Assembly: GCF_000143085.1 (NCBI RefSeq)
Contig: NC_014315.1
Location: 1,580,001 to 1,644,000 of the forward strand
Reading direction: 5' to 3'
Length of the DNA: 64,000 bases
Source of the DNA: Nitrosococcus watsonii C-113
Lineage (GTDB): Bacteria > Pseudomonadota > Gammaproteobacteria > Nitrosococcales > Nitrosococcaceae
Shown: piece by piece, positions 43,350 to 46,518 of the stretch
Layout: the number at the start of each line of letters is the position of its first letter
Position numbering within the stretch: the stretch's first letter is position 1
Notes under the pieces: model-generated
Told to the model about the DNA's origin: nothing
The model's input: the letters and a program-made list of their open reading frames with translations, nothing else
The model's database searches: none
Made by a program: the position numbers and the translations under genes

Positions 43350-45149
43350 ATGGCAAATTTCGATATTGATGATTTTCTAAAGAATTTAACTGCTTGCCCA
43401 GGCGTTTACCGTATGTTAGACGCCAAAGGGAAAGTGCTCTATGTTGGTAAAGCAAAAAACCTAAAAAGGCGAGTAGGTAGTTATTTTAGAAATTCAAAAC
43501 TAGCACCTAAAATCCGCATCCTAGTCAACCAGATTTACAATATCAAAATTACTGTAACTCATACAGAGAATGAGGCACTGATTCTAGAAAATAATCTTAT
43601 TAAAGCTCTACAGCCTCGCTATAATGTATTATTAAAAGACGATAAGAGTTATCCTTATATTTTTCTCTCTGCTGACGATTTTCCCCATTTAGGGTTTCAT
43701 CGAGGAGCCAAGCAAGCCCCTGGACAATACTTCGGGCCTTATCCAAGCGTTAGCTCGGTATGGCAAACGCTGAAATTACTTCAGGGGGTTTTTCCTGTAC
43801 GTCAGTGCGAAGATAATTTTTACCGCAACCGCTCTCGTCCTTGCTTACAATATCAGATCAAACGTTGTACTGCTCCTTGTGTGGGTTTAATTAGCAAGGA
43901 AGATTATAATCAAGATATTCAACACGTGGTGATGTTTTTAAAAGGGCGGGATCAGCAGGTTATTAATGAGCTGGTAATACGCATGGAAGAAGCCTCCCAG
44001 CAACTTGCTTTTGAACAAGCGGCCTACTATCGGGATCGAGTTGCTAGTTTACGGCGCATCCAGGCGCGTCAGTATATCAGTGGTAAAAAAATGGATATTG
44101 ATGTGCTTGGGGTTATCCTTGCGGAGAGAATGGCCTGTGTGGAAGTTTTTTTTATTCGCGGTGGGTATAATTTAGGCAATAAGACCTTCTTACCTAAACT
44201 TGAAGGGAACCTAACGCCGCAAGAGTTGCTTTCTGCTTTTATAGCACAATATTACTTAAATAGAGAGATTCCACCTGTCCTTGTACTCAGCCATCAACCT
44301 AAAGATATGAATCTGCTCACCGAAGTACTCAGTGAGCAGGCGGGAAGGAAGATCACCTTGATAAAGCCAGATCGGGGTCCTAAGGTACAATGGGTAAAAA
44401 TGGCTTTAACCAACGCTAAGATTAACTTAGATCAATGTCTCGCAAAAAAATCGAGTATTGCTGCGCGCTTTAAAAGCTTACAACGATTACTAAATTTAGT
44501 GAATTCCCCCCAGCGGATTGAGTGTTTTGATATTAGTCATATTCAAGGGACATCTACAGTGGCTTCCTGCATAGTATTTGATAGAGAGGGCCCCCGTAAC
44601 GCTGATTATCGCCGCTTTAATATTAAAGGGATCATTCCAGGGGACGACTATGGCGCCTTGCGCCAAGCATTAACCCGACGTTTTAAAAAAAAAGAGGGAA
44701 TATTTCCAGATTTACTTGTGATTGATGGAGGTAAAGGACAGATAAATCAGGCACTTACCGTGCTTGAAGAAATAGGAGTTATAGAAACCACCGTACTGGG
44801 AATAGCGAAAGGTCCCGAACGTAAAGCAGGGAAGGAAACCCTATTTTTGGCAGGGTATGAAAATCCGATAATGGTAACACCCGATTCGCCAGCTTTACAT
44901 CTATTGCAGCATATCCGTGATGAGGCTCACCGTTTTGCTATTATCAACCACCGCAAGCGCCGTGCTAGGGGGGGTAAGCTTTCTCGTTTAGAGGAGATAC
45001 CTGGGTTAGGCCCTAAACGGCGTCGGAAACTCTTGATCCAATTAGGAGGATTGCAAGAGATAATGCGGGCCGGAGTTGAAGACTTAGCCCAAATAAAGGG
45101 AATTAACCTGGTATTAGCTCAACGTATTTATGATATTCTTCATAGATGA
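43350..45149 (+). CDS. uvrC: Excinuclease ABC subunit C
   Basis: 599 aa; cuts DNA on both sides of a UvrAB-marked lesion. N-terminal GIY-YIG nuclease (PGVYRM...VLYVGKAKNLKRRV), UVR motif near 200-235, RNase H-like half (ECFDISHIQGT), and C-terminal helix-hairpin-helix pair (IPGLGPKRRRKLL). Starts the conserved uvrC-pgsA-tRNA series. Confidence 0.97.
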   Translation: MANFDIDDFLKNLTACPGVYRMLDAKGKVLYVGKAKNLKRRVGSYFRNSKLAPKIRILVNQIYNIKITVTHTENEALILENNLIKALQPRYNVLLKDDKSYPYIFLSADDFPHLGFHRGAKQAPGQYFGPYPSVSSVWQTLKLLQGVFPVRQCEDNFYRNRSRPCLQYQIKRCTAPCVGLISKEDYNQDIQHVVMFLKGRDQQVINELVIRMEEASQQLAFEQAAYYRDRVASLRRIQARQYISGKKMDIDVLGVILAERMACVEVFFIRGGYNLGNKTFLPKLEGNLTPQELLSAFIAQYYLNREIPPVLVLSHQPKDMNLLTEVLSEQAGRKITLIKPDRGPKVQWVKMALTNAKINLDQCLAKKSSIAARFKSLQRLLNLVNSPQRIECFDISHIQGTSTVASCIVFDREGPRNADYRRFNIKGIIPGDDYGALRQALTRRFKKKEGIFPDLLVIDGGKGQINQALTVLEEIGVIETTVLGIAKGPERKAGKETLFLAGYENPIMVTPDSPALHLLQHIRDEAHRFAIINHRKRRARGGKLSRLEEIPGLGPKRRRKLLIQLGGLQEIMRAGVEDLAQIKGINLVLAQRIYDILHR

Positions 45150-45239
45150 TAGTTAAAAATAAGTCTAATGGAGAATAGGGACTGTGGCAGAGTAAAAGTA
45201 AAGATTCCGCGGTTTTTTAAGCGGAAAAGGGCTCAATTC

Positions 45240-45809
45240 ATGCCCATTTATACCATTCCCAATGTAATAACAATTTTGCGCATTGTAGCTATCCCCGTTT
45301 TGGCGACAGTGTTTTATCTTCCTCTACCCCATGCTCGTGAAATTTGTGCGGCATTATTTGGTATAGCGGCTGTTACTGACTGGCTGGATGGCTATCTAGC
45401 AAGGCGTTGGCAGCAAACTTCACCGTTTGGGGCCTTTTTAGATCCGGTTGCCGATAAGCTAATGGTCGTTATTGCCTTGATATTACTCTTACAAAGCCAT
45501 CCTTCCGTGCCGATGGCTCTTTCAGTAGCAGTTATCGTCGGTCGGGAGCTAACGGTATCGGCACTGAGAGAATGGATGGCAGAGATTGGACTACGTGCTA
45601 GTATCGCTGTTTCTATGTTAGGAAAATTTAAGACCACGTTCCAGATGATTGCTGTCTTTCTACTACTTTATCAACATCCTATTGGTCCTATTCCTATATG
45701 GGATATTGGTTTAATCCTTCTTTATATTGCGGTTGCTTTAACCCTAGCATCAATGATTGTCTACCTCAATGCCGCTTGGCTAGCATTAGTGGGACGTGTA
45801 GAAAATTAG
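45240..45809 (+). CDS. pgsA: CDP-diacylglycerol-glycerol-3-phosphate phosphatidyltransferase
   Basis: 189 aa membrane enzyme making phosphatidylglycerol-phosphate, precursor of the cardiolipin substrate. CDP-alcohol motif D-G-x2-A-R-x8-G-x3-D-x3-D is complete (DGYLARRWQQTSPFGAFLDP then VAD). I choose ATG 45240, which gives the family start MPIYTIPNVITILRI and has AAGGG 8 bases before; an upstream ATG at 45168 would add 24 basic residues. Confidence 0.93.
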   Translation: MPIYTIPNVITILRIVAIPVLATVFYLPLPHAREICAALFGIAAVTDWLDGYLARRWQQTSPFGAFLDPVADKLMVVIALILLLQSHPSVPMALSVAVIVGRELTVSALREWMAEIGLRASIAVSMLGKFKTTFQMIAVFLLLYQHPIGPIPIWDIGLILLYIAVALTLASMIVYLNAAWLALVGRVEN

Positions 45810-45857: not shown

Positions 45858-45933
<76 letters not shown>

Positions 45934-45976: not shown

Positions 45977-46050
45977 GGCTGGGTGGCAGAGTGGTTATGC
46001 AGCGGCCTGCAAAGCCGTGAACGCCGGTTCGATTCCGACCCCAGCCTCCA
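45977..46050 (+). tRNA. tRNA-Cys (anticodon GCA)
   Basis: 74 nt: acceptor GGCTGGG/CCCAGCC, anticodon loop CTGCAAA, T-loop TTCGATT, encoded CCA. Only one cysteine tRNA is seen in this window. Confidence 0.97.
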
Positions 46051-46196: not shown

Positions 46197-46518
46197 GCCC
46201 GGGTGGCGAAATAGGTAGACGCAAGGGACTTAGTAATTTGAGCACCTAGGTGGGAAACCCCTAGAGTGAATGGAGTCAGATTCGGGGGAACCTCAGCAAG
46301 TTTTCAGGATGGTGGCAATCCCGAGCTAAGCCTTAAGGGGAAAGTGTAGAGACTTAACGGCTCCTACCTAAATCATTTTGATTAGTGATAAGGTAAAGAT
46401 AAAGTCCAGACCACAAATGTACTTGTTTTATTAGCAAGTGCAGCAGCGAAAGCTGTAGCGGGTAAGAAAATCCCTTGGGGGAAACCCCGTGCCGGTTCGA
46501 TTCCGGCCCCGGGCACCA
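46197..46518 (+). tRNA. tRNA-Leu (anticodon TAA), split by a group I intron
   Basis: Exon 1 is 46197-46231 and exon 2 is 46467-46518. Joined, they form an 87-nt tRNA: acceptor GCCCGGG/CCCGGGC, anticodon stem AGGGA/TCCCT with loop CTTAAAA (TAA), class II variable arm (TTGGGGGAAACCCC), TTCGATT and encoded CCA. The break is between bases 34 and 35 of the anticodon. This is the position of E. coli leuZ after glyW and cysT. Confidence 0.93.
46232..46466 (+). other. Group I intron in tRNA-Leu(UAA)
   Basis: 235 nt, no open frame inside. It starts after U34 and ends in G (the omega-G), as group I introns do. The exon end CTT can pair with GAG at 46240-46242 to form P1, with a U-G pair at the splice site. 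Core elements resemble the cyanobacterial tRNA-Leu intron: a Q-like GGCAATCCCGAGC at 46314-46326, an R-like GTGTAGAGACTTAACGG at 46344-46360 and an S-like AAAGTCCAGA at 46401-46410, whose GACT/AGTC can form P7. Self-splicing is inferred. Confidence 0.9.

Follow-up and report, generated by a model that had tools for sequence, protein, structure and literature searches.

The window analyzed here is a stretch of 64,000 nucleotides from Nitrosococcus watsonii C-113 (NC_014315.1, positions 1,580,001 to 1,644,000 of the forward strand), in which a forward-strand tRNA array follows two open reading frames that we take to be uvrC (43350-45149) and pgsA (45168-45809), both on the forward strand and with homologues found by tblastn in the loci of relatives. 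ARAGORN places tRNA-Gly(GCC) at 45858-45933 and tRNA-Cys(GCA) at 45977-46050 of the array, and these are followed by a split tRNA-Leu(UAA) gene (46197-46518) with an encoded CCA end. The 35-nt 5′ exon (46197-46231, last bases C32, U33 and U34) and the 52-nt 3′ exon (46467-46518, first bases A35, A36, A37 and A38) are separated by 235 nt (46232-46466), so that the insertion point lies within the anticodon, between U34 and A35, and the insert ends in G46466. With default settings, ARAGORN reported five tRNAs in the window and missed this gene; with introns allowed, tRNA-Leu(taa) was returned at 46197-46518 with an intron at position 36 and a length of 235, and the joined exons were read as a normal 87-nt tRNA-Leu(taa). 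The split gene is thus overlooked by a default tRNA search. The gene order in E. coli is uvrC-pgsA-glyW-cysT-leuZ, and the leuZ position that an earlier note, made from the sequence alone, had given to the split gene agrees with the four genes upstream. The same four genes precede the intron-bearing tRNA-Leu gene in all six Nitrosococcaceae genomes, and uvrC/pgsA lie near the intron in many further gammaproteobacterial loci; uvrC-pgsA-tRNAGly-tRNACys-tRNALeu is the ancestral locus of the intron-split gene in Nitrosococcaceae.

The insert has the sequence and structure of a group I intron. The Rfam model Intron_gpI (RF00028), a search that the earlier note had proposed, matched 46221-46428 with 72.6 bits (E = 1.7e-16), above the curated cut-off (gathering score) of 50 bits; the note's 235-nt intron between bases 34 and 35, with exons joining to a perfect tRNA, proved exact to the base. 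Placement in subgroup IC3 is suggested by likeness to known tRNA introns, a single Rfam group I model having been used. Covariation was evaluated in an alignment of 51 introns of the same type, by counting the P1-P9 group I structure with its P3/P7 pseudoknot. Standard pairs filled 97.7% of cells; shuffled controls reached 86.7% and controls with the partners shifted 28-47%, and a structure drawn on the window's own sequence has some advantage over the latter. Both sides changed at 24 of the 38 pairs, and in each of the five measures the alignment lay above every one of the 500 shuffles and above all shifted registers. That advantage does not account for double changes, for example in P3 from GGAGUC/GGCUCC to CCCGUC/GGCGGG.

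The core helices, including the P3/P7 pseudoknot, are conserved, and covariation was observed in P2-P9, all on the forward strand. P1 (46229-46242) pairs exon C32-U33-U34 (46229-46231) with intron GAG (46240-46242) as CG, UA and UG in 51/51 introns, which bears out the wobble pair (U-G) that had been noticed at the 5′ splice site, together with the terminal G. The P2 hairpin (46243-46268) shows double-sided change in 7/8 pairs. The 5′ strand of P3 (GGAGUC, 46272-46277) is paired with 46359-46364 (GGCUCC) in 100% of cells, with double-sided change in three pairs, and that of P4 (UUCGGG, 46281-46286) is paired with 46320-46325 in 97.7% of cells, with two such pairs. In the P5 region (46291-46315), 46291-46292 pair with 46314-46315 in 100% of cells, with double-sided change in 2/2 pairs; P6 (46331-46340), supported by covariation, pairs 46331-46332 with 46339-46340, and its loop is the site of an antisense HNH ORF in relatives. 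P7, which forms the pseudoknot with P3, pairs GACUU (46351-46355) with AAGUC (46402-46406) in 97.6% of cells, with double-sided change in three pairs. P8 (46367-46393) was placed from the covariation alignment, and a P9-region hairpin with a GAAA loop (46444-46455) shows double-sided change in 4/4 pairs. P7 is the guanosine-binding helix of group I introns, and P7 of the window's intron is expected to have this role. As the note had stated, the intron encodes no homing endonuclease: the translated frame contains stops and the whole intron is 235 nt long. No match to a free-standing copy of the relatives' HNH was found in the N. watsonii genome.

The intron is present in the tRNA-Leu(UAA) gene of all six Nitrosococcaceae genomes, and the few group I hits in the 57 genomes of the other Nitrosococcales family lie at other sites. 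Such introns are fairly common in the class: when it was sampled evenly, the exon-intron pattern matched 19 of 370 gammaproteobacterial genomes (approximately 5%), a lower bound because only exact matches to the pattern were counted. Named genomes gave at least 118 stretches, mostly from Gammaproteobacteria and Cyanobacteria; the matches listed also include a few from Betaproteobacteria and Alphaproteobacteria, and two MAGs of Acidobacteriota. Plastid-like introns in Lactobacillus (L144) and Clostridia (L146) MAGs were set aside as likely plastid contamination, as was a contig of a 'Phycisphaerales' MAG (L168) as probable misbinning, its uvrC/pgsA grouping with Gammaproteobacteria. Many further group I intron matches lie outside tRNA-Leu in gammaproteobacterial genomes (e.g., L002, L010, L011; three in G014, contig C4).

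Several related systems are known. Small group I introns occur in the anticodon loops of Azoarcus tRNA-Ile and alphaproteobacterial tRNA-Arg, which differ from the window's intron in both tRNA and site. A Pseudomonas-like deep-subsurface isolate, reportedly described by Vepritskiy and colleagues in the Journal of Bacteriology in 2002, is said to have a 231-nt tRNA-Leu(UAA) intron, similar in gene, size and gammaproteobacterial host class but in a different host. The interrupted tRNA-Leu-TAA of Beggiatoa and Thiomargarita, also Gammaproteobacteria, has been attributed to group I introns (PMC4853749); the Thiotrichaceae loci that we found have the same site and intron type, although in the intron tree their introns form a subgroup of their own. 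A 2014 tRNA review names Cyanobacteria, Alphaproteobacteria and Betaproteobacteria only (PMC4033280). The note was right about the gammaproteobacterial host, but its suggestion that such introns are mostly known from cyanobacteria, which would make the host an odd one, does not hold in light of the family-wide occurrence, the share of sampled gammaproteobacterial species and the published cases.

Some relatives of the intron carry endonucleases. An antisense HNH ORF occupies the P6 loop of ten same-site introns (681-734 nt), nine from Gammaproteobacteria, of which two are named Muproteobacteria (L077, L079, L088, L099, L110, L113, L160, L181 and L193), and one from an Acidobacteriota MAG (L109). 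The ORF is broken in L193; the nine aligned proteins retain the HNH and zinc-ligand residues, with 62-90% identity to the first member. This set matches PHROG 10822, a phage HNH family (E = 3e-49), and a sequence search found no solved structure for it. In an Acidobacteria MAG (L174), a tRNA-Leu intron has a different HNH, encoded on the sense strand in the P5 loop.

Same-site introns were also found in phages and on plasmids. In a 735-kb phage (LR756501.1; L225:1096-1386), tRNA-Leu(UAA) is split at U34/A35 by a 205-nt intron that is 75% identical to the window's over approximately 109 nt; because RF00028 gave no match at E 0.01, its class rests on the alignment and common motifs. On Bradyrhizobium conjugative plasmids, the gene is split at the same point by a 204-nt intron (e.g., NZ_CP094524.1; L227:1289-1578), which scored 45 bits against RF00028, under the curated cut-off. 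On a Tritonibacter mobilis plasmid (L226:1108-1435), a related group I intron interrupts the anticodon loop of a different tRNA, which is Ile(tat) according to ARAGORN and by its sequence may be Thr(UGU). Scanning IMG/VR with the exon-intron pattern yielded 31 contigs (L228-L258), with a complete intron delimited in 26, most of which have tRNA-Leu(taa) as host gene according to ARAGORN; one contig (L244) appears to be a chance match. Several contigs encode phage-type proteins or long tRNA arrays, and the viral status of the others, including L228, rests mostly on IMG/VR's own classification. HNH ORFs are present in the introns of L228, L237 and L238 and a LAGLIDADG ORF in that of L239; the antisense HNH of L228 is 55% identical to the acidobacterial HNH, and the endonucleases of the other three are a second HNH in antisense orientation, an HNH on the sense strand and the LAGLIDADG protein. 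In a combined tree, whose backbone is weak, most virus introns fell between the cyanobacterial and proteobacterial groups. A 2014 review placed all phage introns then known in protein-coding genes (PMC3984707), and later reports are possible.

We consider it very probable that the genome's only tRNA-Leu(UAA) gene is interrupted in the window by a small group I ribozyme that has no endonuclease, was probably inherited within the family and belongs to a proteobacterial lineage, and that the wider intron family has moved elsewhere at the same site. The intron would have been passed down vertically within Nitrosococcaceae, and other members of the wider family have probably moved from host to host at U34/A35, presumably through endonuclease-driven homing of phage or plasmid copies. 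The six Nitrosococcaceae introns form one group in approximately 65% of bootstrap trees, and holding them together was not rejected (AU p = 0.45); resolution of the intron tree is weak because the intron is too short, and repeated re-acquisition within the family is conceivable. The window's intron is thus probably a vertically inherited, endonuclease-free member of a family able to move.

How the intron reached Gammaproteobacteria in the first place is a separate question, and we give roughly even chances to several independent homing insertions from phage or plasmid copies into different gammaproteobacterial lineages, the ancestor of Nitrosococcaceae included. Because it concerns the deep origin, this possibility is compatible with the explanation preferred for the window. 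The patchy spread (19/370), the same-site copies in phages and on plasmids and the antisense HNH in common all speak for it, as does one case in which the intron disagrees with the genes beside it: uvrC/pgsA make L076 and L181 sisters (100/100), yet the introns of the two stand apart, and that of L181 has the HNH ORF. The supported conflict at L076/L181/L171 suggests intron replacement. However, the distances of introns and flanking uvrC/pgsA correlate across 25 hosts (Mantel rho = 0.31, p = 0.009; without the family 0.34, p = 0.03), and shallow pairs are concordant between the intron tree and the uvrC/pgsA tree; moreover, a single ancestral intron with many losses would also be patchy, and the homing that independent insertions call for is presumed.

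Another source to be considered is a recent horizontal acquisition from a cyanobacterium or plastid, which we regard as very unlikely. The cyanobacterial tRNA-Leu(UAA) intron does resemble the window's in gene, U34/A35 site (as the note had pointed out), size, P1 U-G pair at the splice site and P3-P9 core, and at least one apparent exchange between cyanobacteria and proteobacteria is known to us. Between the cyanobacterial tRNA-Leu exons of Myxacorys almedinensis (L100) and an Oscillatoriaceae MAG (L114) lies an intron of proteobacterial type, a combination that suggests transfer at the same site; placing both with the other cyanobacteria was not rejected (AU p = 0.32), although the deepest branch leaves both together with the proteobacterial introns. 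In the tree of 130 introns, a long branch (100/100) separates 40 of the 42 cyanobacterial introns and the two plastid-like contaminants from all proteobacterial introns, and the window's intron does not group with the cyanobacterial/plastid lineage. Its core identity is 87% within the family and 75% to other gammaproteobacteria, whereas the mean to cyanobacteria is 60% (best 63%). The core identity of only approximately 60% to the main cyanobacterial type therefore gives no support to a recent transfer from cyanobacteria, and the presence of the intron throughout the family also argues against it. Judged by sequence comparison, the window's intron belongs to a proteobacterial tRNA-Leu(UAA) lineage distinct from the main cyanobacterial/plastid lineage. 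The note's question of horizontal transfer versus deep ancestry can be answered in part: the data fit inheritance within the family and do not fit an import in recent times from the main lineage of cyanobacterial introns, and same-site transfers elsewhere in the wider family are probable.

A search of the N. watsonii genome with a tRNA-Leu(UAA) pattern allowing up to three mismatches, on which the claim of no second copy relies, found no intact tRNA-Leu(UAA) gene, the sole match being tRNA-Leu(CAA). The same pattern search found no intact copy in any of the six Nitrosococcaceae genomes and found one in most sister-family genomes. It is scarcely credible that the insert is a decayed one with no functional intron, the tRNA being supplied otherwise, since the core helices have been maintained throughout the family and, through compensatory changes, in its relatives, and no intact gene was found in the genome.

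As a functional intron, the insert would be expected to splice by the group I pathway: an external guanosine bound in P7 would attack after U34, positioned by the P1 U-G pair, and the freed U34 would then attack after the terminal G (46466) and join A35, thereby restoring the anticodon. No intact copy having been found, splicing is probably needed to read UUA codons, and the splicing of the sole tRNA-Leu(UAA) is probably essential to N. watsonii, as far as can be judged from its genome.

The window's intron is itself a further case of a known type, and the lead worth pursuing is its endonuclease-bearing phage and plasmid relatives. In N. watsonii, an ammonia oxidizer, an essential tRNA appears to depend on RNA catalysis. 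More generally, the tRNA-Leu(UAA) anticodon intron serves as a textbook example of an ancient, vertically inherited intron. Its same-site relatives in phages, plasmids, Acidobacteriota and, as the proteobacterial type, two cyanobacteria, some of which share an endonuclease, make the question 'ancient or mobile' testable. We tentatively suggest, at somewhat less than even odds, that phages, and to a lesser extent conjugative plasmids, are a diverse pool of same-site split tRNA-Leu(UAA) genes, some with an HNH or LAGLIDADG endonuclease, that may have seeded and reseeded the bacterial introns of the proteobacterial lineage and perhaps of the cyanobacterial/plastid one. If this is true, the tRNA intron classically regarded as 'ancient' would be a mobile element that phages carried and that then settled.
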